From Burkholderiaceae bacterium (lineage in GTDB: Bacteria > Pseudomonadota > Gammaproteobacteria > Burkholderiales > Burkholderiaceae_C), in NCBI GenBank assembly GCA_016790575.1, contig JAEUOU010000023.1:62001-126000 (forward strand): a DNA stretch of 64,000 bases, given 5' to 3'. A program made the position numbers and the translations under genes. Positions 13,370 through 61,382 of this stretch are shown here, in pieces (the stretch's first letter is position 1; the number at the start of each line of letters is the position of its first letter). The notes below the pieces were generated by a model, which had not been told where the DNA came from, made no database searches, and worked only from the letters and a program-made list of their open reading frames with translations.

Positions 13370-13440
13370 CGGGCCGATTTCAAGCGAAATCTGTCCATAC
13401 CCAGCGAAAAACGGTCGTTTTTAGCTATTGTTTTTATAGT
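13370..13440 (+). repeat. REP-like interspersed repeat, copy A
   Basis: Begins about 20 bases after the aldehyde dehydrogenase stop. Core TACCCAGCGAAAAACGGTC then GTTTTTAGCTATTG. The arms AGCgAAAAA and TTTTTaGCT pair around CGGTCG, giving a hairpin with one mismatch. Lies between the dehydrogenase and SDR genes. Confidence 0.8.
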
Positions 13441-13458
13441 CTTTCGGAGGCATTGACC

Positions 13459-14220
13459 ATGCGTTTGGCCCACAAATCCGTCATCGTGACCGGCGCTGGC
13501 AGCGGCATTGGCGCGGGAATTGCGCGCCGGCTGGCGTCCGAAGGGGCGCGGGTGATCGTCAACGACATTCATGCCGAGGCGGCCGGGCAGGTGGTGGACG
13601 AGATCCGCCGCGCCGGCGGCGATGCCGCGTTCTGCCGGGCGGACGTCACGCAGTCCGCCGACGTGCAGGCGCTGGTGGCGGCGGCGCTGGCCCGCCACGG
13701 GCGGCTGGATGTGATGGTCAACAACGCCGGCTGGACGCACCGCAACCGCCCGGCGCTGGAGGTCAGCGAGGCCGAATTCGACCGCTGCTACGCCGTCAAC
13801 GTCAAAAGCATCTACCTGGCCACCCTCCACGCCGTGCCGGCCTTCCGGGCGCATGGCGGCGGCTGCTTCATCAACATCGCCTCCACCGCCGGGGTGCGCC
13901 CGCGCCCGGGCCTGACCTGGTACAACGGCTCCAAAGGCGCGGTCATCACCACCAGCAAGTCGCTGGCGGCCGAACTGGGGCCGGAGAACATCCGCGTCAA
14001 CTGCATCAACCCGGTGTTCAACCCCACCACCGGCCTGGCGGCCGAATTCGCCGGCGGCGAGCTGACCGAGGATCGCCTGGCCAAATTCCGCGCCACCATT
14101 CCGCTGGGCCGCTTTTCCACGGCGCTGGATGTGGCCAATGCGGCCCTGTTCCTGGCCAGCGACGAGGCCGCCTTCATCAGCGGTGTGTGCATCGAGGTGG
14201 ACGGCGCGCGCTGCGTATAG
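13459..14220 (+). CDS. Short-chain dehydrogenase/reductase
   Basis: 253 aa, classical SDR. Rossmann nucleotide motif TGAGSGIG (residues 11-18), NNAG (88-91), and catalytic Ser142, Tyr155 and Lys159 (YNGSK) are all present; Asp36 after the second strand suggests NAD+ preference. GGAGG precedes the ATG by 8 bases. Lies after an aldehyde dehydrogenase, so an alcohol-to-acid oxidation route is possible but the substrate is unknown. A short GC hairpin follows the stop. Confidence 0.88.
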   Translation: MRLAHKSVIVTGAGSGIGAGIARRLASEGARVIVNDIHAEAAGQVVDEIRRAGGDAAFCRADVTQSADVQALVAAALARHGRLDVMVNNAGWTHRNRPALEVSEAEFDRCYAVNVKSIYLATLHAVPAFRAHGGGCFINIASTAGVRPRPGLTWYNGSKGAVITTSKSLAAELGPENIRVNCINPVFNPTTGLAAEFAGGELTEDRLAKFRATIPLGRFSTALDVANAALFLASDEAAFISGVCIEVDGARCV

Positions 14221-14231
14221 CGGGGCCGGCC

Positions 14232-14250
14232 GCAGGGCTTTGCGCCCTGC
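14232..14250 (+). terminator. GC-rich hairpin after the SDR gene
   Basis: GCAGGGC (14232-14238) and GCCCTGC (14244-14250) pair perfectly around a 5-base loop, 11 bases after the SDR stop. Only cctaaag follows, with no U-tract, so termination strength is doubtful. Confidence 0.4.
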
Positions 14251-14264
14251 CCTAAAGTGGCGCC

Positions 14265-14831
14265 ATGAACGCTGCACACCGCTTTTTCGCCCTGCCGCTG
14301 GCAGCCTGCCTGCTGGCGGCACCCGCTGGCGCACAAACGGCCAGTTTCTGCGCCGGGCTCGACAGTTACAAGGTCAACCCCATCATCGGCGGCACGCCGG
14401 TGGATCTGTGCCGGGTCGACGCCCGGGCCGTGCTGCTGGTCAACACCGCCAGCGCCTGTGGCTTCACGCCGCAGTACGAGGGGCTGGAAAAGCTGCACCG
14501 GCGCTACGGCACCCAGGGCTTGCGGGTCGTGGCCCTGCCCGCCAACGATTTCGGTGCCCAGGAGCGGGGCAACAACCAGCAGATTGCCGAGTTCTGCCAG
14601 ATCAACTATGGCGTGACCTTCACCGTGGGGGAAAAACTCACCACCCCGATCCGGGCAGACCGGCTCTACAGCCAGCTGATCCGCCGCACCGGGCAGGCGC
14701 CGCAATGGAACTTCCACAAGTACCTGATCACCGCGGACGGCGAGGTGCAGAGCTTCGATTCCGCCGTCACCCCCCAAAGCCGCCTGCTGGTGCAGGCGGT
14801 CGAAGCGGCGCTGAAGCCGGCGGCTCGCTGA
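14265..14831 (+). CDS. Exported glutathione peroxidase-family protein
   Basis: 188 aa. A cleavable signal peptide (residues 1-23, ending AGA-QT) precedes a thioredoxin-fold peroxidase domain. Peroxidatic Cys65 is in NTASACGFTPQYEGL, Gln99 in LPANDFGAQE, and Trp/Asn in the WNFHKYL motif, so the catalytic set is complete with Cys in place of selenocysteine. Predicted to reduce peroxides in the periplasm, probably with thioredoxin-like partners. Export is unusual, since most bacterial homologues are cytoplasmic. A TlpA-like protein is encoded 2 kb away. Confidence 0.85.
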   Translation: MNAAHRFFALPLAACLLAAPAGAQTASFCAGLDSYKVNPIIGGTPVDLCRVDARAVLLVNTASACGFTPQYEGLEKLHRRYGTQGLRVVALPANDFGAQERGNNQQIAEFCQINYGVTFTVGEKLTTPIRADRLYSQLIRRTGQAPQWNFHKYLITADGEVQSFDSAVTPQSRLLVQAVEAALKPAAR

Positions 14832-14850
14832 CCGGCCGCCAACCCCGTCC

Positions 14851-16593
14851 TCAGTGGACCGCCACGGAAGAACGGGGCGGTGAACCCGGGACGGGCCGCA
14901 TCCGCAGGTGCTCCAGCACGTGACCGGTCATGCCGCGGGCAAGCTCCTCCGCACCGAGGAACACGGTGCCCAGGTTCTCCCCCCGCAGCAATTGCGCCTC
15001 GGCTTCACTGCGGGTCCGCAGCACCACCACAATCGCCGGATTGAGTGTGCGGGCGGTCTGGACCATCTTGCGCACGTCCACCACATCGGGGATGGCGATG
15101 ACCAGCATGGCGGCATGGGCCACATGGGCCTGAACGAGCACCTCGGCCGTCATCGCGTCGCCACTCACCGCGGCGATGCCTTCGCGACGAAGGTCTTCCA
15201 CGCGTTCGCGGTTCTGTTCCACCACCACCAGGGGAATGTTGCGCTCGCGCAGGGCATCGGAAATCCGCCGTCCGACGCGGCCGTAGCCGACCAGCACCAC
15301 CTGCCCGCTGAGCACGCGTCGGTCGGTCGAGGTCGGCAGCTCCGCCAGGGGGTCGTCGCGCATTTCCAGGCGCCGGGCCAGTTCGGAGCGCGCCAGAATC
15401 CAGCGGCGCAGCGGCTCCACCGCCGAGAACAGGGCCGCGTTGGCGGCAATCGAGATCAGCGCGCCGGCCAGCACCAGGCTCTGGCCCTCCCGCGGGAGCA
15501 GGTCCAGCGCGACCCCCAGCCCGGCAAGGATGAAGGAGAACTCGCCGATCTGCGCCAGACTGGCGCCGACCGTGAGGGCCGTGTTGAGCGGATACCGGAA
15601 CAGCAGCACCAGCGCGACGGCCGCCACCGTTTTGCCGACCAGAATGATGGCCACCACCGCCAGCAGTTTGAGGGGCTGCTGCACGATCACCGCCGGATCG
15701 AACAACATGCCCACCGAGACAAAAAACAGCACCGCAAACGCATCGCGCAGCGGCAAGGACTCGTCCGCCGCGCGGTGGCTGAACTCGCTCTCGCGCATCA
15801 TCATGCCGGCGAAAAACGCCCCCAGCGCAAAAGACACATCGAACAGCTTGGCCGCGCCAAATGCCACGCCCACGGCTATGGCCACCACCCCCAGGGTGAA
15901 CAGTTCCTGCGAGCCGGTGCGCGCGATCCACCACAACAGCTTGGGCAGCAGCCGCCGGCCCACCACCAGCATCAGCACCACAAACGCGGTCACCTTGGCC
16001 AGGGTCCAGCCCACGGTGCCCCAGATCGAACCGGCATCGGCCACGGCGGCGGCATCGGTGTTCGCCTTGAGCAAGCCCGCCACCGCCGGCAGCAGCACCA
16101 GCACCATGACCATGACCAGGTCTTCCACCACCAGCCAGCCGACTGCAATCTGGCCGTTGACCGACTTGAGCAGGCCCTTGGCCTCCAGTGCCCGCAGCAG
16201 CACCACCGTGCTGGCGACCGAAAGACACAGCCCGAACACCACCCCCGAGCCCAGGTCCCAGCCCCAGGCCATGGCAACCACCGCGCCCAACAGCGTCGCC
16301 ACACCGATCTGCACGATGGCTCCGGGCACGGCAATTTTCTTGACCGCCATCAAGTCGGCCAGCGAGAAGTGCAGCCCCACGCCGAACATCAGCAACATCA
16401 CGCCGATTTCCGCCAGTTGCCCGGCCAGGCCCACATCCGCCACATAACCCGGCGTCGCCGGACTGACCACAATGCCCGCCAGCAGGTACCCCACCAGCGG
16501 CGGCAGCTTCAGCCGCGCCGCGCCCAGCCCGAACACCATCGCCAGGCCAAAAGCCGCGGCGATGGTACTGATCAGGCTGATGTCATGGGGCAT
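14851..16593 (-). CDS. Kef/YbaL-type cation:proton antiporter with RCK domain
   Basis: 580 aa. Residues about 1-390 hold twelve or so membrane helices of the CPA2 Na+/H+-exchanger family (GYLLAGIVVSP; GVMLLMFGVGLHFS; ASLAQIGEFSFI). Residues about 415-540 form a TrkA-N/RCK nucleotide-binding domain with GYGRVGRRISDALRERNIPLVVVEQN. Most like E. coli YbaL among Kef proteins. Probably exchanges K+ for H+ under nucleotide or thiol control. Start set at 16593 so that the first helix follows immediately. Convergent with the glutathione peroxidase gene. Confidence 0.9.
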   Translation of the reverse strand: MPHDISLISTIAAAFGLAMVFGLGAARLKLPPLVGYLLAGIVVSPATPGYVADVGLAGQLAEIGVMLLMFGVGLHFSLADLMAVKKIAVPGAIVQIGVATLLGAVVAMAWGWDLGSGVVFGLCLSVASTVVLLRALEAKGLLKSVNGQIAVGWLVVEDLVMVMVLVLLPAVAGLLKANTDAAAVADAGSIWGTVGWTLAKVTAFVVLMLVVGRRLLPKLLWWIARTGSQELFTLGVVAIAVGVAFGAAKLFDVSFALGAFFAGMMMRESEFSHRAADESLPLRDAFAVLFFVSVGMLFDPAVIVQQPLKLLAVVAIILVGKTVAAVALVLLFRYPLNTALTVGASLAQIGEFSFILAGLGVALDLLPREGQSLVLAGALISIAANAALFSAVEPLRRWILARSELARRLEMRDDPLAELPTSTDRRVLSGQVVLVGYGRVGRRISDALRERNIPLVVVEQNRERVEDLRREGIAAVSGDAMTAEVLVQAHVAHAAMLVIAIPDVVDVRKMVQTARTLNPAIVVVLRTRSEAEAQLLRGENLGTVFLGAEELARGMTGHVLEHLRMRPVPGSPPRSSVAVH

Positions 16594-16713
16594 GGGCGGG
16601 GGACCTCGGGAGTTGCACCGATCGTAGTGCGGCCTCGCCCCCGGCGCCGGGCCTCGCGGCGAATACACCGGCCGGAAGCCGGAAATGCGCCTGCCAATTG
16701 GCGATGCTTCGGA

Positions 16714-17250
16714 TCAGCCCAGCCAGCGCACGAGCTGCTCGACATCCTCGGCGAACATCTGGCCTTTTTCGGCCTGCAGTACCCGCCCGTCGCGGCCTCG
16801 CACCACGGTGATGGGCAGCCCGCGCGGCTTGGGCAGCACCCGCTGGAATTCGGGGGTCACCCACGCGGCGGGGAAGGTGTAGCCCTTTTTCTGCAGGTAG
16901 GCCGTGGCGTCCTCGGGCCTGCGGTCCACGGACAGCGCCAGCAGGCGCAGACCACGCGGTCGCGCCACGGTCCAGAGTTTTTGCATCTCCGGGCTTTGCA
17001 AGGCACAGAAGGGGCAGGTGCTGGCCCACCAGTACAGCACGGTGATCTGGCCGTCGGCCTGCGCGGGGACAAAAGTGCTGCCATCGACCAGCGTCACCGC
17101 CGGCAGGCGCAGGGGCGACCCCACGGCGGGCAAAGCCGGGGCAACCGCTTCGCTCGGTGGTGGTGACTGGGCCAGCACGGGCAACCCGTCTGCGGCGGTC
17201 GCCAGGCCGGCGGGCAGCGCCAGCATTAGCTGTCGTCTTCGGGCTTTCAT
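16714..17250 (-). CDS. TlpA-like periplasmic thiol-disulfide protein
   Basis: 178 aa. N-terminal signal (residues 1-28, basic MKARRRQ then a hydrophobic stretch ending LAQ). A thioredoxin-like AhpC/TSA-Redoxin domain follows, with WWASTCPFC (Cys79 and Cys82) as redox centre and a cis-proline in RGLPITVV. Family members reduce periplasmic disulfides or assist cytochrome maturation. An AAGGAG Shine-Dalgarno supports the start at 17250. Divergent from moaA. Confidence 0.85.
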
Positions 17251-17396
17251 GGGCTCTCCTTCCGGTCTCGGGTGCAGTGTCCCATGGTAGCGCGGACCGG
17301 CGGGATCGACCAAGGGCCTGGCGGTCGTTTGCCCGCGTCGCCGGCAGGGCTACGGCCGGACCATTGCGCCGGCAGTGGCCCGGCATAATGCCGCGC

Positions 17397-19802: not shown

Positions 19803-19806
<4 letters not shown>
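19186..19806 (+). CDS. mobA: Molybdenum cofactor guanylyltransferase MobA
   Basis: 206 aa. Transfers GMP from GTP to molybdopterin to make the MGD form used by DMSO-reductase-family enzymes. The nucleotidyltransferase signature [16 protein letters not shown] lies at residues 12-27, followed by ANRN and the metal-site PCDTP. Starts within the preceding stop (ATGA) and its own stop overlaps the moeA start by 4 bases: a tightly coupled operon. Confidence 0.95.
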
Positions 19807-21134
<1,328 letters not shown>

Positions 21135-21200
21135 TCGGCTTTTGGCCAAAATCAGCCCCTACCCAGCGCAAAAGCGTCCTTTTGCGCTATTTATTTTGAA
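21135..21200 (+). repeat. REP-like interspersed repeat, copy C
   Basis: Starts at the base after the moeA stop. AGCGCAAAA (21165-21173) and TTTTGCGCT (21180-21188) are perfect 9-bp arms around gcgtcc, the best hairpin of the family. A second palindrome TTTTGGCCAAAA overlaps its left end. Lies between the convergent ends of moeA and the PaaK-like gene. Confidence 0.85.
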
Positions 21201-21203
21201 CCT

Positions 21204-22679
21204 TCAGTCGGCGTGGGTGCACGGCGCTTCGGCCTGGACCCGCGCACCCGGGCCTGCCCCGGCCGCGGTGGCCATGCCCGACACCGCACCGCCCAGCACC
21301 CGGCAGACTTTGCCGCTGTGCCCGCGCGCCAGGGTGACGGCGCGCTCTTCATGGATCGGCAAACCCCGCAGACCCTGACTGGCGGCAAATGCCGCCAGCG
21401 CGCTGCGGCAGCGGGCGAAGGCGGCATCGGCGGCTTCGCCGCTCAAAGGCAGGCGCAGCGTCAGGCTGTGGTCGTCGCGCTGCGCCAGCTGGAAGTCGAA
21501 AACGCCGGCCTCCTCCTCCAGCACCGTGGTCAGGGCCATCGGCAGCAGGGTCACCGGTTCGCCGTGGCGGCCACGCAGCACCAGGGGCTCGTCGTCGCGT
21601 CCACGCACCTGGATGACCGGAAGCGGCGAACCGCAGCGACAGGGCTGGTCGGACAGCATGATCTGGTCACCCAGGTCGTAGCGGATCAGGGGCTGCACCG
21701 TGTTGGCCAGGTGGGTCAGCAAGACGCTGGCCGAGGCAGCCCCGGGCGGCACCGGCTGGTACTGTTCGTCCACCGGCTCCAGGATGACCCAGTCGGCGTT
21801 CAGGTGCAGCTGGCCGTGCGCGCATTCCCAACCCATGGCCAGAAACTCCGACGCACCATAACTGTTGCGCACATTGCAGCCCAGTTGCTGCTCGACGTGG
21901 CGTCGCATGCCGGGACTGAGGGTTTCACCGCCCGTCCAGACTTCGCGCGGGCGCACCCGCAGCCGCCCGGCGGCCGCCTCGTCGGCCAGCAAGGCCGCCG
22001 CCGTGGGGTACGTGGCCAGAACGGTCGGGTTCCAGGTATTGAGTGCGTCCACCAGGCGGGCGGTGGGCTCCAGCACGGAGAAACTGCGGGTGGCCCCCCC
22101 CATCCAGGGGTTCAGCGCGCAAAGCCGCTGCAACGACACGATACTGGCGAAGTGCCCGCCGATGGCGCCCACAAAGGCCATGCGCTCCGCCAGATACCAC
22201 GGGTCCATCCAGCGGCTGATCGGCCGGGGCGCGCTGCGGCGCAGCGATTCGAGGGCGTCATACACCGCCATGCATTCGGCGTCCTGCACAAACAGTCCGG
22301 GCTGGCCGCTGGTGCCTGAACTTTCCCAGACGATGTAGCGGCCGTCATAGGGCACAGCAATGTTCGCCGGTTCGGCCATGAACGCCGCCAGCGCGCTGCG
22401 ACGCAGGCGCGGATCAGTCACCCAGTCGTCAAACTCCGCCATCAGCTGGGCGCGGTGGGTGACTGGCAGCGCGGCCAGCGCGGCATCCGAGGCCAGGCCG
22501 CCGGGGGCGTGGTTCGCCACCAGCCGCCGGTACAGCCGCGAATCCCGCAGCGCCGCCGCAACGACGCGTTCCAGACGCCGCCGCTGCCGGTCCGCCACAG
22601 CCCGGGCGCCGCCCCGGTTGACCGCCGCGATGTCCAGCGACACCGCCGAAAGCCGCAGGGAGTCAAAAACCCGGCTCAT
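21204..22679 (-). CDS. PaaK-like adenylate-forming enzyme
   Basis: 491 aa. ANL-superfamily fold of the phenylacetate-CoA ligase/F390 synthetase type: P-loop SSGTSGQPG, YGASEFLAMGWEC, and RYDLGD are present, with a CRCGS zinc-type motif just after. Would activate a carboxylic acid with ATP, probably to a CoA thioester; substrate unknown. No CoA-pathway partners sit beside it. Start set at 22679 (MSRVFDSLRL). Divergent from phaC across repeat copy D, convergent with moeA. Confidence 0.8.
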   Translation of the reverse strand: MSRVFDSLRLSAVSLDIAAVNRGGARAVADRQRRRLERVVAAALRDSRLYRRLVANHAPGGLASDAALAALPVTHRAQLMAEFDDWVTDPRLRRSALAAFMAEPANIAVPYDGRYIVWESSGTSGQPGLFVQDAECMAVYDALESLRRSAPRPISRWMDPWYLAERMAFVGAIGGHFASIVSLQRLCALNPWMGGATRSFSVLEPTARLVDALNTWNPTVLATYPTAAALLADEAAAGRLRVRPREVWTGGETLSPGMRRHVEQQLGCNVRNSYGASEFLAMGWECAHGQLHLNADWVILEPVDEQYQPVPPGAASASVLLTHLANTVQPLIRYDLGDQIMLSDQPCRCGSPLPVIQVRGRDDEPLVLRGRHGEPVTLLPMALTTVLEEEAGVFDFQLAQRDDHSLTLRLPLSGEAADAAFARCRSALAAFAASQGLRGLPIHEERAVTLARGHSGKVCRVLGGAVSGMATAAGAGPGARVQAEAPCTHAD

Positions 22680-22827: not shown

Positions 22828-22896
22828 GACAACTATCGAAAACATAGCCAAAAGCGACCTTTTTGCCGTGGGTACGGTGACTTTTCACGGAAAACC
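22828..22896 (-). repeat. REP-like interspersed repeat, copy D
   Basis: Minus-strand copy in the 293-base gap between the divergent PaaK-like gene and phaC. Core reads TACCCACGGCAAAAAGGTC then GCTTTTGGCTATG. It is the only copy lying in a divergent promoter region. Confidence 0.78.
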
Positions 22897-29527: not shown

Positions 29528-29980
29528 TTACACGCGCTGTGCCCGGGCCTGGTCGACACCAAGGTTGGCCAACGCGTCGGCGCGCTCGTTGCCCGCGTTG
29601 CCGGCATGGCCTTTGACCCAGTGCCATTCGATCTGGTGGGGCCCGCTGTGGACCAGACCGTCCAGCACCTGCCACAGGTCCGCATTCTTCACGGGCTGTT
29701 TGGAAGCCGTACGCCAGCCTTTGGCTTTCCAGCCATGTATCCATTCCGTGATGCCTTTGCGCACGTACTCGCTGTCGAGATACAGGGACACCCGGCACGG
29801 CCGCTTGAGCGCTCGCAAGGACTCGATGACCGCCGTCAGCTCCATGCGGTTGTTGGTGGTTTCGGCTTCGCCGCCGAAAAGCTCGCGCCGCACCGCGCCA
29901 GACTGGAGCACCACACCCCAGCCGCCCGGGCCCGGATTGCCCTTGCAGGCGCCGTCGGTATGGATTTCAACGTGATTCAT
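29528..29980 (-). CDS. rnhA: Ribonuclease HI
   Basis: 150 aa, full length. Degrades the RNA strand of RNA-DNA hybrids. Catalytic carboxylates are present in the usual places: Asp in [14 protein letters not shown], Glu in NNRMELTAV, Asp in LYLDSEYV, Asp in ERADALA. Its start lies 14 bases inside the 3' end of the upstream methyltransferase gene, and repeat copy J sits immediately upstream of its start codon. Confidence 0.96.
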
Positions 29981-30794
29981 CGTCTTTTCGTTCTTTACCC
30001 GTTGCGGAAAGGTGATAGTTTGCTACAGAAACAGAAGCAGGCTGAACCACCGGCGCCGCCTTCCACGGATTCGCCAGCGGGCGCATACCCCGCACCCGCT
30101 TGCAGGCGACCACAAAATAGGCGGCGCCCAGGATGGGCCACCAGCGCGCGCCAGCCCGGTCCATCCAGGCCAGCCGCTGCAGCCAGCGCTCGGAGCGGAC
30201 CGCCGCCCGGTAGCAGCCGAAGCGCACCACCTCGACTTCAAATCCCAGCAGGCGCAGCCAGTCGCGAAGGCGCCAGTAGGCAATGAACTCGCCGGCATCG
30301 GGCAGGTACAGCGAACCGAATCCGAGGCGGCGGCACAGGTGGGCCCGTTGCTGGCGCAATCCCCACAGGCTGGCCGGATTGAGCCCGCTGATGACCACCC
30401 GCCCTTCCGGCACCAGGACGCGCTCGACCTCGCGAAGCGTGGAATGCGGGTCCAGGTTCAGTTCCAGCGCGTGCGGCAGGGACACCAGGTCAAGACTGTG
30501 TTCGGGAAATGGCAAGGCCGCGTGGTCACACAGCAAATCGAGGCCGGGGCCGCGTTCTGCTTCGTCCGCTGGCAGTCCGCAGCGGGGGGATTCCAGTGCA
30601 AGCCAGCGATGGGGCATGCGGTTGTTGCGCAAGGTATCGAGATCGTCCAGGCCCAATTGGAGCGCGTGATAGCCGAACAGATCCGCCACCGCCTGGTCGA
30701 ACTGATCCTGCTCCCATTCAAGCAGATAACGCCCCGACGGGGTCTGGAACCAGTCGTGCAGGCGAACAGGGGTTTCTATAATCTGGGCTTTCAT
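29967..30794 (-). CDS. Class I SAM-dependent methyltransferase (YafS-like)
   Basis: 275 aa. Methyltransferase_11-like fold: the conserved [22 protein letters not shown] segment and [10 protein letters not shown] are clear. The gloB/methyltransferase/rnhA order matches E. coli gloB-yafS-rnhA, so it is the YafS counterpart; its substrate is not established. The last 22 or so residues (about 254-275) are encoded by repeat copy J, replacing or extending the native C-terminus. Its ATG (30794) shares two bases with the divergent gloB ATG (30793). Confidence 0.85.
29984..30040 (+). repeat. REP-like interspersed repeat, copy J
   Basis: Core TACCCGTTGCGGAAAGGT then GATAGTTTGCTACA. Closest to copy I. 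It lies inside the 3' end of the methyltransferase gene, four bases upstream of the rnhA start on the opposite orientation of reading, so it codes for protein and also forms the rnhA upstream region. Confidence 0.65.
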
Positions 30795-35971: not shown

Positions 35972-37771
35972 TCAGCTGCGGTCCGGTCCCGCCTTGATGC
36001 TGCCGGGCACAATTTTCGCCCCAAACTCGCGCATCATCTCCTGAACGAACGGGTCGGCCTGAATCAGTTCCTGAGCGGCACGCTGGCGGCGCGCCAGTTC
36101 CATCGCCAGCCGCCGCGCCGGAGAGTCGCTGACCTGACCGATTTCCACGGTCAGGCTGACCGGGTGGCCGGCCGCGTGCAATGCGGCCTGCAGCCGCTCG
36201 CGGGTGCTGGCCTGATTGAGCGATTCACGCTCTACCCGCAGCACCCAGCGGTCGCCGTCGCGACCCACCAGTTGGGACTGCAGGGCTAACTCCCGCACCA
36301 GCGCACTGATGGCGTCGCGATCCATCAAGGTCCGCACCGTCGCCTGCCAGAGGTCACCCGCATCATCCGTGAAGGGCATGGACCTCGACGGCGTTTCGGC
36401 ACGTGGTGCGTCATCGGCACCCGCCTCAGGCGCACCGAGGCCTGCAAGCGCTGTGCGCGGCCCTGGCCGGGGCTGTTCACGCACCGGAATCGATACGATT
36501 TTTGTAGCAACAGAAGACCTTTCTGCGCCGGGTATCGGGCTATTTTTATCGTTTTCCGGTACTTCGCCACGGCTGACGGTGGTTTCACCTGCCGGTCCCG
36601 GCATCGACGGCACTCCGGCCGCCTCAGGTGCTGGCTTCAGGCTTTTTTTTTCCACCCCGGTCCCTGCGGTCGCCGGCTTGAAGGCCAGCAGACGCAGCAA
36701 GACCATGGTCAGGGCGCTGTATTCATCGGGCGCGAGCCCCAGTTCGGCACGCCCGTGCAGACACAGGCTGTACAGCAACTGGGTTTCATCAGCGGGCATC
36801 AATGCGGCCAGACGAGCCACCTCTGCCGCCTCGGGGTCCGGATCGGACAGGTCAGGGCCGGCGCCACTTTGGGCTACGGCCATGCGCTGCAGCAGCGTGA
36901 CCATGTCCTCCAGCGTGCTCGCCGCATTCAGCCCGTGTTCGCGCAAGAGGTCCACCGTCTCGACAAGCACCCGCCCCTGCCCCAGTGCCGAGGCTTCGAT
37001 CAGGCGCAGCACATGGCCGCGGTCGGCGCTGCCCAGCATCTGCCGAATGACCGGCAGCTCGATGCGGCCGGCACCGAACGCAATCGCCTGGTCGGTGAGG
37101 CTCAGCGCATCCCGCATCGAGCCGCGCGCGGCGCGGGCCAGCAGATGCAGCGAGGCCGCATCGGCCGGCACGTTTTCGCGAGCCAACACCTGCTGCAGAT
37201 GCTCACGCACGGTATCAGGGGCCATCGGGCGCAGGTTGAACTGAAGGCAGCGGGACAACACGGTCACCGGCACCTTCTGCGGATCGGTCGTCGCCAGCAC
37301 GAACTTGAGATACTCGGGCGGCTCCTCCAGCGTCTTGAGCATGGCGTTGAAGGCATGGTTGGTCAGCATGTGCACTTCGTCGATCATGAAGACCTTGAAG
37401 CGACCCTGGACCGGCTTGTAGACGGCCTGCTCCAGGAGCTGCTGCACCTCATCGACGCCGCGGTTGGACGCGGCGTCCAGTTCGGTGTAGTCGACAAACC
37501 GGCCGGCGTCGATGGCCTGACACGCCGGACAGACCCCGCAGGGCTCCGCCGTAATGCCGCCTTGGCCATCCGCACCCTGGCAGTTGAGCGACTTGGCCAG
37601 AATCCTCGCTACCGTGGTCTTGCCCACCCCCCGCGTACCGGTAAACAGGTAGGCATGGTGCAGACGCTGCCGCTGCAGCGCGTTGACCAGTGCCTGGACC
37701 ACGTGGCCCTGCCCCACCATCTCGGCGAAATTGCGCGGACGGTACTTACGGGCGAGCACAAGATAGGACAT
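35972..37771 (-). CDS. dnaX: DNA polymerase III subunit tau (and probably gamma)
   Basis: 599 aa as full-length tau. Clamp-loader AAA+ ATPase: Walker A GTRGVGKTT, a Cys4 zinc module, DEVHMLTNHAFNAMLKTLEEPP (Walker B region), and the SRC sensor LSRCLQFNLRP; domain III ends near residue 365. At codons 374-377 there is an A9 run with nearby stops in both alternative frames, well placed to yield gamma of about 377-382 aa. The Pro-rich linker (about residues 375-465) carries repeat copy H in frame. The C-terminal part matches tau polymerase-binding domains. Confidence 0.95.
   Translation of the reverse strand: MSYLVLARKYRPRNFAEMVGQGHVVQALVNALQRQRLHHAYLFTGTRGVGKTTVARILAKSLNCQGADGQGGITAEPCGVCPACQAIDAGRFVDYTELDAASNRGVDEVQQLLEQAVYKPVQGRFKVFMIDEVHMLTNHAFNAMLKTLEEPPEYLKFVLATTDPQKVPVTVLSRCLQFNLRPMAPDTVREHLQQVLARENVPADAASLHLLARAARGSMRDALSLTDQAIAFGAGRIELPVIRQMLGSADRGHVLRLIEASALGQGRVLVETVDLLREHGLNAASTLEDMVTLLQRMAVAQSGAGPDLSDPDPEAAEVARLAALMPADETQLLYSLCLHGRAELGLAPDEYSALTMVLLRLLAFKPATAGTGVEKKSLKPAPEAAGVPSMPGPAGETTVSRGEVPENDKNSPIPGAERSSVATKIVSIPVREQPRPGPRTALAGLGAPEAGADDAPRAETPSRSMPFTDDAGDLWQATVRTLMDRDAISALVRELALQSQLVGRDGDRWVLRVERESLNQASTRERLQAALHAAGHPVSLTVEIGQVSDSPARRLAMELARRQRAAQELIQADPFVQEMMREFGAKIVPGSIKAGPDRS
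36492..36562 (-). repeat. REP-like interspersed repeat, copy H, inside dnaX
   Basis: Minus-strand core TACCCGGCGCAGAAAGGTC then TTCTGTTGCTAC, closest to copy G. CAGAA and TTCTG pair around aggtc. It encodes about 22 residues of the tau linker, in a frame different from the one copy B uses in moeA. Confidence 0.75.
36643..36651 (-). other. A9 slippery run in dnaX
   Basis: On the coding strand G-AAAAAAAAA-GC spans codons Glu374, Lys375, Lys376 and Ser377. A -1 shift reads Lys-Pro-Glu-Ala-Ser-Thr then TGA; a +1 shift reads Ala then TGA. Either product would stop just after domain III, as gamma does. Thermus dnaX uses transcriptional slippage at an A9 run, and E. coli dnaX uses -1 ribosomal frameshifting. 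Confidence 0.75.
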
Positions 37772-38194: not shown

Positions 38195-38288
38195 GACGGG
38201 CCTTCCCGCATGGTGAAGCGGCCAACCGGGTCAGGTGGGGAACCAAGCAGCCCTAACTGTGGAGTCAGTGCCGGGGTCAAGGCTCGTC
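38195..38288 (+). ncRNA. ffs: Signal recognition particle RNA (4.5S RNA)
   Basis: The conserved SRP domain IV core is present as GTCAGGTGGGGAACCAAGC followed by AGCC, and the ends pair perfectly: GACGGGCCTT (38195-38204) with AAGGCTCGTC (38279-38288, one G-U pair). Length of about 94 bases fits the bacterial short form. It binds Ffh to target membrane proteins co-translationally. Location beside dnaX is a common arrangement. End positions are set by the terminal helix. Confidence 0.92.
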
Positions 38289-38387
38289 ACCCCTTTCAGA
38301 CCTTCAGGTCATGCGCATTGGGCTTTCGGGACCCGTGCCGTAACGCAGGCTGAACGCCAATTCCCCTTCTTGCATCCCCGGAAATGT

Positions 38388-39994: not shown

Positions 39995-41212
39995 ATGGAG
40001 TTCCTGAAATGGGTCGGCGTGGCTGTTGGCGCCGCTGTCGGTGGTTACTACGGCCAGCAGCTGATCGGATGGTGGGCCGGTGGCGCCGCGGGCTTCGTCG
40101 GAGTAGCCATTTTTCTGAGCTTGTTGCTCAAAGGTCAGTGGCTCATGTCCATCCTTGCCTTCGTTGCGGGCTTTTGGGCGCTGTTTTCCCTGATCGGAGA
40201 AGCTCCGCCGGCCGCAAAGACGCCGTTGTCCCCCGCGTCCCAGGCCGCCACACCCGGCTCCGCACAACGTGCGGCCCAGGAAAGCTTACCCGCCGTCGCG
40301 CCGGCCTCACGCGCTGTGCGCAGCGACGAACCCAGCCCGCGGCCCACGGCCCTGCCCGAATCGGTCACCCGCGACGGCGCCATTCGGGACTGCCCACAGT
40401 GCCCCGAACTGGTGAATATTCCACCTGGGAGCTTCCAGATGGGCAGCACGCCCGGCAAGGCCATTGCGGGTCGCACCGTGGATGCCCGTGAAGGCCCGGT
40501 TCACCGGGTATCGGTAGCGTCCTTTGCGGCCGGCCGACACGCCGTGACACGGGCTGAGTTCTCGGCATTTGTGCAGCGCACCGGGCACAAGACCGATGCC
40601 GAGCGGGACGGCGGCTGTTTTGTCTGGTCCAGCGGCGAGTGGGCGCTGCGCGCGGGCACCTCCTGGAGAAACAGCCTGTTGAAGCAGGCCGACAACCATC
40701 CCGTTGTCTGTGTCAGCTGGGACGACGCCCAGGCCTATGTGAAATGGCTCAGCCAGGAAACGCGCCGGAACTACCGGCTGCTCAGCGAAGCAGAGCGGGA
40801 ATATGTGGCCCGCGCGGCAACCACAACCCTGTTCTGGTGGGGCGACGAGCTCACACCGGACAAAGCCAACTACCAGACAAGTGCGCCGGATTTCCAGGGC
40901 AGCGCCAAAGGTCCGTGGCGGCAATCGACGACACCGGTCCATCAATTTGATCCGAACCCGTTCGGCCTGTACCAGGTCCACGGCAACGTCTGGGAGTGGG
41001 TTCAGGACTGCCACCATGACTCTTACCAGGGCGCGCCGGCAAACGGCAGCGCCTGGACGGAGAAATGCGCGTCGCCCGCCCGTGTCTTGCGCGGCGGCGC
41101 CTGGGTGGGAGACCCTGCCGATCTGCGCGCCAGCAGCCGGCTATGGCTTTCGCCGGCGATGCGTTTGCAGGCGGCCGGCTTTCGGGTCGCCCGCGACCTC
41201 ACCAAGCCGTAA
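39995..41212 (+). CDS. SUMF1/formylglycine-generating-enzyme-type protein with membrane N-terminus
   Basis: 405 aa. Residues about 5-65 hold two or three hydrophobic spans with a Gly-rich start (GVAVGAAVGGYYGQQL), then a Pro/Ala linker to about 150. The rest is a SUMF1/FGE-sulfatase domain: VNIPPGSFQMGS, VCVSWDDAQAYVKWLS, YRLLSEAEREYVARA, YQVHGNVWEWVQDC, RVLRGGAW and GFRVAR. Whether it converts a cysteine to formylglycine or is a non-catalytic paralogue is not clear; no sulfatase is nearby. Repeat copy E starts at its stop codon. Confidence 0.85.
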   Translation: MEFLKWVGVAVGAAVGGYYGQQLIGWWAGGAAGFVGVAIFLSLLLKGQWLMSILAFVAGFWALFSLIGEAPPAAKTPLSPASQAATPGSAQRAAQESLPAVAPASRAVRSDEPSPRPTALPESVTRDGAIRDCPQCPELVNIPPGSFQMGSTPGKAIAGRTVDAREGPVHRVSVASFAAGRHAVTRAEFSAFVQRTGHKTDAERDGGCFVWSSGEWALRAGTSWRNSLLKQADNHPVVCVSWDDAQAYVKWLSQETRRNYRLLSEAEREYVARAATTTLFWWGDELTPDKANYQTSAPDFQGSAKGPWRQSTTPVHQFDPNPFGLYQVHGNVWEWVQDCHHDSYQGAPANGSAWTEKCASPARVLRGGAWVGDPADLRASSRLWLSPAMRLQAAGFRVARDLTKP

Positions 41213-41272
41213 TTCGGGCAAAAATCGCCCGTACCCAGCGTGAAAAGTTCGCTTTAAGCTATCTTTTTCATA
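41212..41272 (+). repeat. REP-like interspersed repeat, copy E
   Basis: Starts at the stop codon of the SUMF1-type gene and ends 16 bases before the convergent histidine kinase stop. TTCGGGCAAAAATCGCCCG precedes the core TACCCAGCGTGAAAAGTTC and GCTTTAAGCTATC. GGGC and GCCC form an extra small hairpin. Confidence 0.82.
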
Positions 41273-41287
41273 TCGTGGCAGGTCGGC

Positions 41288-45631: not shown

Positions 45632-46543
45632 ATGAAACCCGCAGAAACGTTCTCGATCACCGCCGATGACGGTCACCGGTTTGAAGCGTCCCTGCACGCC
45701 ACGGCCGACCCGACCGCTCCGGTTCTGCTTTTCCTGCCGGCGCTGGGCACGCCCAGCCGGGTGTATCGCGGCTTCGCCACCGCATTGGCCGCCCAGGGCG
45801 TGCAGGTATGTATCACCGACTGGCGTGGCATGGCCAGCAGCAGCGTGCGGGCATCCCGCGGACACAACCACGGCTATCAGACCTTGGTCGAAACCGATGT
45901 GACCGCGCTGCTTGCGCAGCTCGCCCGGCGGGTTCCCCAGGCGGCGCTGTGGGTCGGCGGCCACAGCCTGGGCGGACAGCTTGCGACCTTGCTGGCGGCC
46001 CGCCAGTCTCCACCCGTGCGGGGCCTGGTCCTGGTGGCCAGCGGCAGCGTCTATCGACGGTGTTATTCGCCGAGCTTACAGATCGGCATCCGTTTTCTGG
46101 GCCTGATGGCGGCAATCACCGGCGCGCTGATCGGGTATTTTCCCGGGCGGCGGTTCGGTTTCGGCGGCCGGGAAGCACGGGGCGTGATGGACGACTGGCT
46201 TCACGTCGCCCGCACCGGACGCTACGAGCCCGCCGGCTCCACTTTCGACTACGAAACCGCATTGCGCCGTCTGACCCTGCCGGTGCTGGCGCTGAACTTC
46301 CGCCGCGACACCTGGGCACCCGAAGCCGCGGCGCGGCATCTGCTGGACAAGCTGGCCGCCGCGGACCGGCATCCCTGGATCTGGGGCGATGCCGAAACGG
46401 ACGGGCAGCCGCTGGACCATTTCTCCTGGGCCCGCAAACCCGATCTGGTGGCCGCGCCGGTCGCGCAGTGGATATACCAGCACAGCACCGCTCACTCGCG
46501 GGAAAGCGCCCCGAATAGCTATGTTATTTATAGCTATAAGTGA
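45632..46543 (+). CDS. alpha/beta-hydrolase, C-terminus from a repeat
   Basis: 303 aa. Serine hydrolase with LFLPALG oxyanion segment, GHSLGG elbow (Ser112) and a likely acid/His pair near the end (FRRDTWAP; PLDHFSWA). COG4757-like predicted hydrolase; substrate unknown. The final 12 residues (SAPNSYVIYSYK) and the stop codon come from repeat copy F, which reads through the native end. No membrane signal is evident. Confidence 0.82.
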   Translation: MKPAETFSITADDGHRFEASLHATADPTAPVLLFLPALGTPSRVYRGFATALAAQGVQVCITDWRGMASSSVRASRGHNHGYQTLVETDVTALLAQLARRVPQAALWVGGHSLGGQLATLLAARQSPPVRGLVLVASGSVYRRCYSPSLQIGIRFLGLMAAITGALIGYFPGRRFGFGGREARGVMDDWLHVARTGRYEPAGSTFDYETALRRLTLPVLALNFRRDTWAPEAAARHLLDKLAAADRHPWIWGDAETDGQPLDHFSWARKPDLVAAPVAQWIYQHSTAHSRESAPNSYVIYSYK

Positions 46544-46585
46544 CCTTTTTACGCTGGGTATTGCCCGAAAATGCCCGAAAAGCGT
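46514..46585 (-). repeat. REP-like interspersed repeat, copy F
   Basis: Minus-strand core TACCCAGCGTAAAAAGGTC then ACTTATAGCTATAA. ATAGCTAT occurs twice on its left edge (46515-46522 and 46530-46537), each self-complementary. On the right the unit CGGGCA with preceding TTTT is doubled. It supplies the last codons and stop of the hydrolase gene. Confidence 0.82.
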
Positions 46586-56501: not shown

Positions 56502-56504
56502 CGC

Positions 56505-57236: not shown

Positions 57237-57344
57237 GCCGCCCGCCGGGAGTCATACGAGTCAATGCCCATGCCCCAACTGTAGGCGAAGCTCCCTAGAG
57301 AGGATGCTGCCTCTGGCCCGGTGACCCGAATCGCCCCCGAAAAC

Positions 57345-57410
57345 CATCAATATTCATAGCAACACAGGACCTTTCTACGTTGGGAATTGGCCAATTTGCT
57401 CGCAAAAACG
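57345..57410 (-). repeat. REP-like interspersed repeat, copy G
   Basis: Minus-strand core TTCCCAACGTAGAAAGGTC then CTGTGTTGCTATGA, the only copy with TTCCC instead of TACCC. ATTGGCCAAT, a perfect palindrome, sits at its upstream edge. Lies in the divergent gap between the DTW gene and the 57467 ORF. Confidence 0.75.
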
Positions 57411-57464: not shown

Positions 57465-57466
57465 AC

Positions 57467-57790: not shown

Positions 57791-57993
57791 CTGGTATCGA
57801 TCGGGCGGTGAACGAGCGGGCATGGTCATGAAACCGTGAGCGGTGGGGACGTTGAACCTCCCCCGCGCCAAGGTGATTCAGTTTGCCTGCGGCAGGGGAG
57901 AAAGCCGTTGCGTCAACGCTGAATACCGCCCGACATTGACCCAAGAAGCAGAGCGACCCATTCGATGGAACAACGCGATGAAGGCCTGAAAAG

Positions 57994-58590
57994 TTACCTG
58001 TCGGTATCGGGAAAAGCGAAATCCTGATCGTCCAGTTGAATACCCATCGTTTCGTACCAGTCGCGGCCCAATTCGTCCACTTCTGTTGTGGGGCAAGGCA
58101 GATTGGCAATCAGTTTGCCCTTATGTTCAACGGCCACACCTTGCAGCGCCAAAGGCCGACCTTTCGGCCCCCAGCGCCCGATTCCGGTGTACACCACATA
58201 GGCGTAAGCCCCTTTCTTGAAGCGCAACCAACTGCCAGCACCGCCTGCGTAAGTGGCCGTCTCACCCGTTGCAGTCAACCGCGGCGGCGTCGCCTTTTCG
58301 GGCAAGGTCATCTCGGGCTGTTGGCCACCAGCGAGCGGGCCAAACCGGTAGTACAGCGCACCCTTGTGGGCCGACGCATCCGGACTGGCACACACGGATA
58401 CGGTTTTTTTCCCGGGATGACAGGTGAAAACGTTGATCTCCTGCGCGGTACACCATGACTTGGTCAACCTGGCAGTTGGCGCGGCCTGTGCGGCCGCCGT
58501 GCCTGGCACCGCACACAGGGCAAGGACGATAGATACCCACATCGCGGGCAGCGCAGGGCGTGAAGTGGGCCAATGGGCGTGTCGGGTCAT
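57994..58590 (-). CDS. Hypothetical exported protein
   Basis: 198 aa, not recognised. Signal peptide residues 1-35 (PALPAMWVSIVLALCAVPGTAAA). The mature part has TKSWCTAQEINVFTCHPGKKTVSVCAS, suggesting a disulfide-bearing beta domain, and a C-terminal acidic segment ending in DTDR. Start set at 58590 to place the signal at the N-terminus. Last of three tandem minus-strand genes for exported proteins of unknown function. Confidence 0.6.
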   Translation of the reverse strand: MTRHAHWPTSRPALPAMWVSIVLALCAVPGTAAAQAAPTARLTKSWCTAQEINVFTCHPGKKTVSVCASPDASAHKGALYYRFGPLAGGQQPEMTLPEKATPPRLTATGETATYAGGAGSWLRFKKGAYAYVVYTGIGRWGPKGRPLALQGVAVEHKGKLIANLPCPTTEVDELGRDWYETMGIQLDDQDFAFPDTDR

Positions 58591-58642
58591 TGCTGGGCGC
58601 AGGGTTGCGTCGAGGTAAGCGACTGTGCGCGGGGTTTCCGTT

Positions 58643-59275
58643 TCATTTGAGCACCGACAGCAGCTTGCGCATCGCAGCATGCTGCCCCGCCAGAGGCACG
58701 GTCAATTCAAGGCGGGTTTTGGCGTCACGGGCATCCTGAATGCTGATGGTCATGGACTGCGTGGTGTGGTCTGCCAGGCTTTCAAGCACGCGGCGTTCTG
58801 TGCTGGATTTCAGTCGACTCAGCGCCATCACGCCAAATGTGAAATCGTTGGTATCGGTGAAGCTGCCGCTCACGGCAAACGCGGTGTTCAAGGTCGCTTT
58901 GCCCGCCGACATGAGGCCAACGGTCATCAATTTGCGATTACCCGATATGGCGTCCGGGCCATCAAAAGCATTGAAATCGAAACCCCTGAGCTCGTCTGTG
59001 CCGCGTACCGTCACGTCCCAGCCCAAGGTGCCATGGATGTCTTTCCTGACCGTGGGAAAGGCAGAAAACCTCACGCTTACTTGTGTGGATTTGCCCAGCA
59101 GCATGACCCGGGTGCTGTAGGTCAATGTATGACCGTCGTTGACCGATGCCGCAGTCCAAGTGCCTGTTGCAGGCGGTGTTTGCGCCCGACCGCACAGGGG
59201 GAAGCTGAAAATTGACATCAAGAGCAGCGCAAGCGCGTGGCGCCGGTCTGCGCGTAGCGAAACATGGGAGGTCAT
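58643..59275 (-). CDS. Hypothetical exported protein
   Basis: 210 aa, not recognised. Basic N-terminus then hydrophobic HALALLLMSIFSFPLCGRAQ looks like a signal peptide. The rest is predicted beta-rich (TWTAASVNDGHTLTYSTRVMLL; TLGWDVTVRGTDELRGFDF) with a helical end. 52 bases upstream of the next exported-protein gene, so likely co-transcribed. Confidence 0.6.
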   Translation of the reverse strand: MTSHVSLRADRRHALALLLMSIFSFPLCGRAQTPPATGTWTAASVNDGHTLTYSTRVMLLGKSTQVSVRFSAFPTVRKDIHGTLGWDVTVRGTDELRGFDFNAFDGPDAISGNRKLMTVGLMSAGKATLNTAFAVSGSFTDTNDFTFGVMALSRLKSSTERRVLESLADHTTQSMTISIQDARDAKTRLELTVPLAGQHAAMRKLLSVLK

Positions 59276-59380
59276 GCTAGGGCCTCTGAACGGAATGTCG
59301 AATCACTGTCATCGGCAGGAGTGTGGCCTGTCCCGCTGGATTCACACAGGTAGTGGCTGCCAGTCGAGCTGCGGCCAGCG

Positions 59381-60226
59381 TTACCGCTTGACCGCGTTGG
59401 GCGCCATGCCTGCCGGCACTGCGCGCGTGACCAGCGCAACCGTGTCTTTCCTGGTGCAACCGATGTTGCCCTGACAAGCAGCCGCCATCACAGTCGCCGT
59501 GGTGTAGGAGAGGGTCATCTGGCGGTTCAGCAACTTTTCGGGTGCCTCGCACAGGCGAAAGTCTGCCATTTCCTGGTGAACTCTGCCAGCTGCATCGACC
59601 AGCTCGATGTGGCAGGCGGTATCACCGGTGTTCACGTTGATCACGGTTCCCTGGGCCAGCTTGCGCTGGCTGCCCACAGCTACCGTGGGTGAAGGTGGCG
59701 CGAGAGTCGCTTTGCGCAAAGCTGCTGCCATGGTCTGTGCGATGGCCGCTTCGGCTTGTGCGAACCGGTCCCCGGGCGGCAAGGGTGTCTTGGTCATGCC
59801 AGCCAGCATGTGCACCAGCCGGTCTTGCTCGAAGTACAAGCGGTGTTCGTTGCGAGTCTTGACCTGCCCGCTGGCCGTGTAGCCCTGGGTGGTGCGCAGG
59901 GCAAAAACCAGCGCTCCATCGCTATCAAAGTACAGATCGGTCAACACGTTGCCTGAATCGTCTGGATCCGTTACCGCGAGTTTCCGCACCTGGCCCTTAT
60001 CAACCGATGCGACCACCTCACTGACGTACTCGACTCCTGGCACCCGCGCAAGAAAACGCTGCGCGGACATGCGCTCGACGCCCTGGTTCACCTCTGTGTA
60101 CACGGCGCGTGCCCGAGCCATCGGATCGGGCGGTGCGGCCCCTGCGGGCATAGCCAGTGTGCACGCGAGCAGAAGGTAACGCCAATGGGCGCGGCAGGCG
60201 GGTGTGGAGGCGAAAGAAGCGGGCAT
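59381..60226 (-). CDS. Hypothetical exported protein
   Basis: 281 aa, not recognised. Signal peptide residues about 1-31 (HWRYLLLACTLAMPAGAA). The mature protein carries a mid-region with DPDDSGNVLTDLYFDSDGALVFALR and four cysteines in the C-terminal half (TACHIEL; RLCEAPEK; AACQGNIGC). First of three tandem genes for unknown exported proteins. Start at 60226 rather than 60262 because it leaves a normal signal peptide. Confidence 0.6.
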   Translation of the reverse strand: MPASFASTPACRAHWRYLLLACTLAMPAGAAPPDPMARARAVYTEVNQGVERMSAQRFLARVPGVEYVSEVVASVDKGQVRKLAVTDPDDSGNVLTDLYFDSDGALVFALRTTQGYTASGQVKTRNEHRLYFEQDRLVHMLAGMTKTPLPPGDRFAQAEAAIAQTMAAALRKATLAPPSPTVAVGSQRKLAQGTVINVNTGDTACHIELVDAAGRVHQEMADFRLCEAPEKLLNRQMTLSYTTATVMAAACQGNIGCTRKDTVALVTRAVPAGMAPNAVKR

Positions 60227-60565
60227 GAAGGCTCCAATTGGTGTTCCCAGCGGGTTGCGCAAGCGACTGACGCCGGTAGGAAATCCACCCGACCGTGGTT
60301 AATTATGGCCCAGGTTTGGGGCAACGAAAGCCAGCTCACCGGGCTTGAATGAGTGCTTGTTCATTGCCAAGCGCCGATGCTGTCAACCACACGCGGGACG
60401 GCTGGCGTGAAGGGCAGGCTGCGCCCTTGGGTCAGACACCCTGGCGCCCCACCGATTGACGCAGATCAGTGCGAACCCAGTCCAGAGGCCTAAATCGAAC
60501 TGGGGCGCAGGTCCCGTGTCACTGCCGGTCGGCGGTGTGCACTGATACCACAAAAGGAAGTATTC
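60227..60565. other. Intergenic region before the lipoprotein gene
   Basis: 339 bases between divergent genes for an exported protein (minus) and a lipoprotein (plus). On the minus strand CATAAT near 60300 could be a -10 box; AAAGGAAG (about 60551-60558) is the lipoprotein Shine-Dalgarno. I see no ORF, repeat copy or palindrome of note in the remainder. Confidence 0.45.
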
Positions 60566-61222
60566 ATGAACATCAAGTTCACCACGCATGTCAGTGCAGC
60601 GTTGCTGACATCGGCCGCTCTTTTGCTGACCGCTGGCTGCGCGAGCACTCCACCGACGGCACAGAAGATGGTGATCAGCCCTGCTGGCACCGTCACCACC
60701 TACCACCGCAAGAGCTCGGGCAGCCTGGGCAGCTTTGACGGCCAGGTCGTCTGGACCCATGCAAGCTCCACCTGGGATGGAAAACCCGTCATCGCGTTCG
60801 GCGCACCGCAAGCGGGGGTAAGCCTGCACGATCCTGTTCATTTCGGCCAGCTGGCAACGCTCAACGCGAAGGGGCAGCCGGTGATGTCTTTCGACCCGCC
60901 GATCGACTACCCCTGGCCGCTTCAGGTGGGCAAGACGTGGGCAACGCAACACACGGTGACGCTGTACCCCTCAGGCAACCAAGTGCCTGTGAAGATCGAA
61001 GGCAAGGTGGAGTCCTGGGGCGATGTGACGGTGCCAGCCGGTACTTTCAAAGCCTTCAAGCTGGTCTGGAGCGTGAACCAGAGCGAACTGGAAACCCGCT
61101 GGTTGAATCCCGCCGAGGGCTTGGCGACGATCAAACGCCATGTGGAGCGTTCCGCCGCGCACCCGCAGGGTGCCGGTGTGCTGGACGCCGAGTTGCTCTC
61201 GCGTGTTGTACCGGCGCGGTGA
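60566..61222 (+). CDS. Hypothetical lipoprotein
   Basis: 218 aa. Lipoprotein signal with lipobox LTAGC at about residue 25, then a Thr/Pro linker. The mature domain is beta-rich (GTVTTYHRKSSGS; GKPVIAFGAPQAG; PWPLQVGKTWATQHTV; WGDVTVPAGTFKAFKLVW), a layout seen in small envelope proteins with a DUF3108-like or similar barrel; no firm family. AAAGGAAG precedes the ATG. Repeat copy I lies about 100 bases after its stop. Confidence 0.65.
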   Translation: MNIKFTTHVSAALLTSAALLLTAGCASTPPTAQKMVISPAGTVTTYHRKSSGSLGSFDGQVVWTHASSTWDGKPVIAFGAPQAGVSLHDPVHFGQLATLNAKGQPVMSFDPPIDYPWPLQVGKTWATQHTVTLYPSGNQVPVKIEGKVESWGDVTVPAGTFKAFKLVWSVNQSELETRWLNPAEGLATIKRHVERSAAHPQGAGVLDAELLSRVVPAR

Positions 61223-61318
61223 AGAGGCAAACTTCGCAAGCGATCCTCCGGCTAGCGCCCCGGCAGCACCCGGCGTCAAGGCCGGGGCCGGGGCTTGGGC
61301 CGAAAGCGCCGGCGAACG

Positions 61319-61382
61319 CTATTACAAATGTAGCAAACAATCACCTTCCGACGATGGGTAGTGGCCGAAAGTGGCCAAAAAC
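61319..61382 (-). repeat. REP-like interspersed repeat, copy I
   Basis: Minus-strand core TACCCATCGTCGGAAGGTG then ATTGTTTGCTACA, closest to copy J. Just upstream of the core the unit TT-GGCCAC is repeated in tandem (TTGGCCAC-TTTC-GGCCAC). Lies between the convergent lipoprotein and YeeE-type genes. Confidence 0.72.

Follow-up and report, generated by a model that had tools for sequence, protein, structure and literature searches.

The DNA-uptake motifs of the Neisseriaceae (DNA uptake sequence, DUS) and the Pasteurellaceae (uptake signal sequence, USS) are short, at 10–12 bp, or about 30 bp when tracts are included; the USS core is 9 bp long with tracts on one side, and regular spacing is a trait of both systems. 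Another class of interspersed repeat, the repetitive extragenic palindrome (REP), forms a hairpin and owes its mobility to a REP-associated tyrosine transposase (RAYT). Here, we describe an interspersed 66-bp element in a 64,000-nucleotide stretch of the genome of a Burkholderiaceae bacterium (GenBank assembly GCA_016790575.1, contig JAEUOU010000023.1, positions 62,001 to 126,000). The whole stretch is called the window below, and its source genome the own genome. We propose, with a probability of roughly one half, that the element is a genome-wide recognition signal of Comamonadaceae-type Burkholderiales acting at the DNA level, and most probably one for uptake in natural transformation. We hold a little more tentatively that it represents a third DNA-uptake language that evolved independently, in the form of a 66-bp Comamonadaceae signal with multiple contacts; its hundreds of copies would have switched dialect together at shared positions in genes, forming a barrier to genetic exchange between genera.

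DUS are reported to occur in hundreds to thousands of copies and in dialects (PMC3630211), at permissive sites of the core genome, and to originate by recombination, in part as sequence that aligns with gaps in relatives (PMC2397512). USS have a core and stiff A/T tracts, originate by point mutation, and vary slightly in motif among lineages (PMC7811141); our comparison also draws on PMC2346458. The element resembles both systems in these respects. In contrast, the DUS is 10–12 bp long, whereas the element spans 66 bp and carries 41–62 bits, and it differs from the USS in having several cores, with tracts between them and on both sides. Sequence-selective natural transformation has been reported in Acidovorax and Verminephrobacter (PMC4212676): A. 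temperans was transformed solely by same-species DNA, transformation of V. eiseniae decreased about 10-fold with salmon DNA and fell no further at ratios up to 1500:1, and mutation of the type IV pilus reduced transformation from 1e-2 to at most about 1e-7. The V. eiseniae pilBC and ptsI fragments used there gave good transformation, and no DNA exchange took place between A. temperans and A. facilis. Neither “motif” nor “repeat” occurs as a word in the main text of that paper, in which we noticed no named uptake sequence of its own.

A preliminary description of the window had reported ten REP-like sites of about 33 bp. To score them, a profile was built by iterative training on 20 other stretches of the own genome and the window, 464 kb in total. 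All ten sites were present in their places, with scores of 87, 82, 73, 68, 64, 63, 61, 61, 58, and 45 bits, and they were the only matches above 8 bits in the window; the reversed sequence, used as the control, gave no score above 4 bits. The 464 kb contained 78 copies (24.9–88 bits) and one further match at 8–10 bits, with none between. When the scan suggested in the preliminary description was carried beyond the window, 133 copies exceeded the calling threshold of 18 bits in 864 kb of the own genome, and 8 matches lay between −2 and 18 bits; the reversed control had none above −2 bits. This density of 1 copy per 6.5 kb extrapolates to about 530 copies per 3.45 Mb. Across the own genome, a 19-base pattern had 136 exact matches and a 30-base pattern with at most one mismatch had 253, each with a control of 0. 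These counts bear out a genuine, abundant, and unannotated interspersed element.

Counted from the T of TACCC (position 0), the element extends over about 66 bp, from −20 to +45, and bears a direction, so that the earlier extent of about 33 bp is superseded. Its consensus begins with TTT (−20), an A/T tract (−11 to −8), GCC (−5 to −3), and TACCCAGCG (0–8), continues with AAAA (11–14), GGTC (15–18), a T-rich run (21–25), and GCTAT (26–30), and ends with an A/T tract (33–35) and AG (40–41). The motif carries 62 bits over 75 columns in the own genome, and the best core columns have the same base in 95–98% of copies. The A/T content has a period of 10.5 bp, the helical spacing, in the own genome and in the relative G025, and this period is not the leading one in G010, G015, and G004 (G-numbers label the compared genomes, with the own genome as G000, and L-numbers the extracted loci). 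Of the 133 own copies, 46 have AAAA and 30 have TTTT in the tract at −11 to −8, which switches as a block; the strongest covariation among the 78 copies was likewise found between neighbouring columns within such A/T tracts. Phasing of this kind suggests that bent or stiff DNA is contacted at several points on the same face, an arrangement also proposed for the USS.

Spacer columns of low information had a mean pair identity of 0.315, near background, and a nearest-neighbour identity of 0.563 versus 0.538 ± 0.004 with shuffled columns, i.e., they are nearly saturated. Since the spacers are near background while the cores are conserved, the copies look old at neutral positions. Over all columns, the nearest-neighbour identity was 0.682 versus 0.647 ± 0.002 when shuffled, and only this slight excess is left of the three or more copy groups (A–F, G–H, and I–J) once proposed for the window. 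Hardly any sign of recent copying was found among own copies; in a BLAST search of the own genome with a 19.9-kb segment that spans copies A–D and J, the best other copy had 90% identity over 59 bases. As a separate observation, two copies 1.3 kb apart (L014:8523 and L014:9869) have near-identical 3′ halves and flanks, representing a local duplication.

A search with DnaX placed the own genome among Comamonadaceae-type Burkholderiales, with 80 named matches of 61–69% kept (Ramlibacter, Rhodoferax, Hydrogenophaga, Variovorax, and uncultured beta-proteobacteria). Patterns in the own dialect were found in none of 59 other genomes and in none of the named contigs, a set that may exclude the own genome; they are absent elsewhere because the dialects differ. 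The first five relatives sampled shared this gapless layout and differed in the bases of its middle part, i.e., in genus-specific dialects, as in the G015 form ...GCGCTTG..C...AAGCGC.AGCA GCTAT.AAA..... In G015, the density was 1 copy per 2.9 kb and a 14-mer with at most one mismatch had 534 matches (control 0); copies were sparse in G003 (9 in 114 kb). Eight genomes scanned with a control contained 0.5–3.5 copies per 10 kb, with 0 in reversed sequence. Dialect statistics refer to the five genomes with sufficient copies (G003, G012, and G014 had too few for a profile), and overlaps were removed when the profiles were built, since palindromic dialects otherwise mix strands. The motifs of these five genomes carry 41–62 bits over 72–75 columns, and leave-one-out scoring assigned 247 of 249 copies to their own dialect group. 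With a threshold of 22, the dialect profiles gave 31 matches in 8 of 20 same-family genera in a 378-kb sample, which was not blind because many of its stretches surround genes from earlier searches, and in which one 2.6-kb stretch consists of N. Outside the family (20 genomes, 345 kb), one weak match was obtained, in a genome of 44% GC, in a scan run without a reversed control. One copy in the foreign GCGCTT/AAGCGC dialect also occurs in the own genome, at L178:18749 (G000:C39, about position 144749; 76 bits), possibly in an imported segment.

Copies also recur at the same positions of the same genes. Copy B of the window (20712..20777, +; 73 bits) lies in frame within moeA (19803..21134, +; PRK10680 over the cut-off), which was matched in 38 of 40 genomes. 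The proteins of G002 and G027 lack residues 305–326: they align at 1–304 and 327–442/443 with adjacent bases, so that the own gene has 22 extra codons at copy B. The same linker holds an own-type element in G025, G010, G015, G004, and G012; since the linker varies in length, its exact border is uncertain, and independent insertion is possible at moeA alone. Copy J (29976..30041, +; 45 bits) overlaps, in antisense orientation, the 3′ end of a methyltransferase-like gene (29967–30794, −) and adjoins an open reading frame (ORF; 29528–29980, −) that we take to be rnhA. Copies occupy this position in G025, G015, and G012 as well; in G010, G003, and G014, the site has no element and the protein alignment stops at residue 245 of 275. 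For nadE, 30 loci were examined from the 40 genomes, and 13 of the 29 others had a copy near residue 255; the linker has the same length in the own genome and eight others with a copy as in four element-less loci. Copy H (36489..36554, −; 61 bits) lies in frame within dnaX (35972..37771, −; TIGR02397 over the cut-off) at about residue 416. Among the 80 named dnaX loci (the gene and up to 2 kb per side), 26 contained at least one copy above 25 bits, and 17 had a copy mapping to residue 418 of the own DnaX. Four named dnaX genes (L042, L047, L053, and L070; three Rhodoferax and one uncultured beta-proteobacterium) have two copies exactly 147 bp apart. Upstream of dnaX, a bacterial small signal recognition particle RNA was found on the opposite strand (38195–38291, +).

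At such shared sites, 12 of the 13 copies scored by leave-one-out fit their own dialect group (5 of 5 at moeA, 3 of 3 at the methyltransferase gene, and 4 of 5 at nadE). Within the group of G010, G015, and G004, the moeA copies are more alike (identity 0.64–0.73) than paralogs (0.51–0.58), which indicates descent; between dialect groups, their identity is 0.33–0.47, about the level of random pairs (0.37–0.40). The simplest account would be that the sites are old and shared, with letters that change in step with those elsewhere in the genome. How a copy can arise is indicated by MnmE, for which 30 loci were examined from the 40 genomes. At residue 215, 8 loci score 22–49 bits, and the other 22 score ≤ 9.6. 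The eight encode the conserved EEEIDFL..AD..GQL-type segment by codons such as CAG CTA TCG AAA TTG CAG CAA and have no gap at the site, while the 22 low-scoring loci mostly use CTG or CTC there. Since these are codon changes within an ungapped aligned segment, the copy at residue 215 arose in place and not by insertion. In the own genome, G025 (24 bits), and G012, the MnmE copy lies instead at residue 350 and is antisense.

We also analyzed the placement of copies in the own genome. The remaining window copies are copy A (13378..13443, +; 82 bits), intergenic between two + genes; copy C (21140..21205, +; 63 bits), at the moeA 3′ end in a convergent gap; copies D (22829..22894, −; 58 bits) and G (57341..57406, −; 64 bits), both intergenic; and copies E (41212..41277, +; 68 bits), F (46515..46580, −; 87 bits, the highest score in the window), and I (61315..61380, −; 61 bits), all in convergent gaps. 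The earlier statement that copies mostly hug gene 3′ ends holds in part, in that convergent gaps are preferred, and fails for B and H inside genes and J across a 3′ end. Convergent gaps contained 39 copies in 11.4 kb (3.4 per kb), tandem gaps 36 in 40.1 kb (0.9 per kb), and divergent gaps 8 in 19.2 kb (0.4 per kb). A further 32 of the 133 copies lay deep inside genes (17 antisense and 15 sense), and 15 were assigned to a “near gene start” class that is uncertain because genes were called with a home-made finder. In tandem gaps, 25 own copies run with the genes and 11 against them, compared with 7/11, 5/8, and 0/3 (++/−−) in G015, G010, and G025. A strong orientation rule, which the first sample had suggested (16:1), was given up when more sequence was added, and no rule is common to the four genomes.

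The copies favor permissive places and are more evenly spaced than chance. Counts per 10 kb were under-dispersed (index 0.62 in 86 bins versus 0.97 ± 0.15 in a slot-matched null, P = 0.0013), and the index was 0.45 in the 69 bins with a GC content of at least 0.62 (Poisson P = 2.6e-5). By GC class, the density was 2.14 per 10 kb in the highest class, compared with 0.89 and 0.30 in the two lowest. A gap of 29.6 kb, the longest without the element, has a GC content of 0.593 (G000:C11:30774-60424) and contains core genes for IF3, ThrS, PheST, and UvrC; this low-GC block is possibly a recombinational import or an assembly mixture. No copies were present in three 50-kb stretches of Comamonadaceae plasmids; their records came from a list of matches, and each stretch was placed at a distance from the one or two matches in its record. 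We make no claim of depletion in foreign islands, because the largest gap holds core genes and the plasmid sample was not blind.

Among phage records, a single dialect query matched 1 of 50,697, and 1,752 of 72,556 plasmid records matched a dialect query, mostly from enteric hosts. Most of the 30 plasmid matches listed lie under DUF1010 (PF06231). In a class 1 integron array (NZ_MZ513635.1, L200:786-852), a DUF1010 ORF between dfrA12 and aadA2, presumably the gcuF cassette, overlaps a full 66-bp copy in a Comamonadaceae dialect (68 bits). This copy points to a Comamonadaceae origin of the cassette, and the DUF1010 family may partly be translated element. There are 15 DUF1010 matches in G010 and 7 in G004; repeated units resembling a cassette array occur at two contig ends of G010 (G010:C4:435-1393 and G010:C12:521-1651).

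In the open PMC literature, the element was found, among the top matches listed, only as two unexplained motif pairs in Table 7 of a 2017 study (PMC5217627), GCTTAT(N)5AAGCG in Acidovorax ebreus and ATAGCT(N)22CAAAAG in Polaromonas naphthalenivorans; six 13-base dialect strings had no occurrence in the literature searched. We regard these pairs, as printed there, as fragments of the element in two relatives, more tentatively for Polaromonas than for Acidovorax, whose pair fits the middle of the GCGCTT/AAGCGC dialect. In that study, 44 of 107 intergenic copies of GCTTAT(N)5AAGCG lay between convergent genes, and Rhodoferax ferrireducens had the most pairs (140); the part consulted describes neither a 66-bp element nor dialects, shared sites, or a mechanism. 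The beta-proteobacterial repeat element (BRE; PMC3110155) is similarly dispersed in Bordetella and Comamonadaceae and is sometimes coding. As described, it appears to differ from our element, being about 90 bp long and GC-rich (69% in Bordetella), with at most 29 copies tabulated and some tandem arrays.

The AGCG-AAAA/TTTT-GCT pairing in the preliminary description shows no conservation: its nine stem pairs occur as often as in shuffled columns across the 133 copies, and folding of 78 copies, which that description had recommended, gave a mean z of −0.4 on both strands. A second stem, GCTAT/RTAGC, fared no better, its five pairs being no commoner than with shuffled partners in the 133 own copies. 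A transcription terminator or a 3′-end RNA element would account for the enrichment between convergent genes, the GCGCTT/AAGCGC inverted repeat of some dialects, and the 25:11 lean in tandem gaps. It is nevertheless very improbable, since an intrinsic terminator is a transcription-oriented GC hairpin with a T run, whereas the hairpin is not conserved in own copies, the tandem-gap orientation is not common to G015, G010, and G025, copies lie deep in genes in both directions, and no Rfam model matched at the element over its gathering score in the window and 140 kb of relatives. In the relative G010, a Proteo-phage-1 RNA was found at L144:17527-17610 (−). An old mobile element related to REP, miniature inverted-repeat transposable elements, or Rickettsia palindromic elements, spread by insertion and now fossil, with cores that were transposase sites, would explain the whole 22-codon moeA difference between genera, the protein end missing at copy J in three genera, the few intermediate scores, and the slight nearest-neighbour excess. 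The REP comparison extends to an interspersed, gene-end-rich distribution, and one G010 copy lies about 95 bp before a match to PF01797. We consider this origin improbable, because no hairpin is conserved, the spacers are near saturation while the cores keep their bases, the MnmE copy has no indel, and shared sites change dialect. Nor is there a clear link to a RAYT. The own genome has one PF01797 match over the cut-off (a 155-aa ORF at L198, where 12 kb contain no copy) and one below it (L197, nearest copies about 5 kb away), and G025, which has the element, has no match. In G004 and G015, a weak copy (34 and 37 bits) lies downstream of a PF01797 match, and in G003, none is near; with a copy every 3–6 kb, chance nearness to such genes is common. 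The label “REP-like” is thus abandoned.

Another explanation is an intracellular, sequence-specific DNA-organising protein, such as a nucleoid or domain-boundary factor or a gyrase-like wrapping activity, with a site every few kilobases that selection keeps and that follows shifts in specificity. Even spacing, helical phasing, the preference for convergent gaps, and individually conserved cores agree with it, and such selection would leave much the same pattern as an uptake signal. We know of no DNA-organising protein of that sort in the Comamonadaceae-type family, no search aimed at a binder having been made, and switching the dialect at hundreds of sites by per-site selection would be costly; we consider this explanation rather unlikely. 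Besides this overlap in expected pattern, several observations weigh against an uptake signal. At 66 bp and 41–62 bits, the element is far beyond any DUS or USS, its density (1 per 6.5 kb in the own genome and 1 per 2.9 kb in G015) is below the approximately 1,000-bp USS spacing reported in PMC7811141, and half-matching sites are few (8 versus 133), giving less of a continuum than gradual birth predicts. In addition, the G015 nadE copy fits the other dialect group better (35.0 versus 24.9 bits), uptake leaves the tandem-gap lean unexplained, and the longest gap consists of core genes, not an island.

On balance, we favor the uptake signal. The element resembles DUS and USS in where its copies lie and how they are spaced, in its dialects and their concerted change, in the mixed ways in which copies are born, and in the phased A/T tracts. 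Independently, selective transformation has been reported in V. eiseniae and Acidovorax, which is why we propose an uptake-signal-like function. Strong over-representation, lineage dialects, and permissive sites with regular spacing are shared with the DUS/USS class; its motifs are short, however, whereas this one has 66 bp and 62 bits in the own genome. We therefore do not class the element as a DUS or USS, given this great difference in length and an uptake function that we infer. In the proposed mechanism, a predicted surface receptor of the type IV pilus and competence machinery would prefer DNA with the 66-bp motif, and recombination with DNA taken up from relatives would create, repair, and homogenise copies (molecular drive). 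The gapless 66-bp layout, the genus dialects, the mostly dialect-following shared sites, the permissive placement, the over-even spacing, and the lack of a conserved hairpin are read directly from the DNA, as are the in-place birth at one site and the whole 22-codon difference at another. From these we infer that a protein reads the element as DNA, that this protein would be an uptake receptor, and that drive rather than selection on each copy would maintain it.

If this proposal is correct, the element would be a candidate for the signal behind the species-selective transformation of Acidovorax and Verminephrobacter, and uptake languages would reach beyond the two families named in PMC4212676. 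It would also be a natural example of concerted evolution at hundreds of scattered sites, and its dialects could be used to trace the origin of DNA, such as that of the integron cassette between dfrA12 and aadA2.

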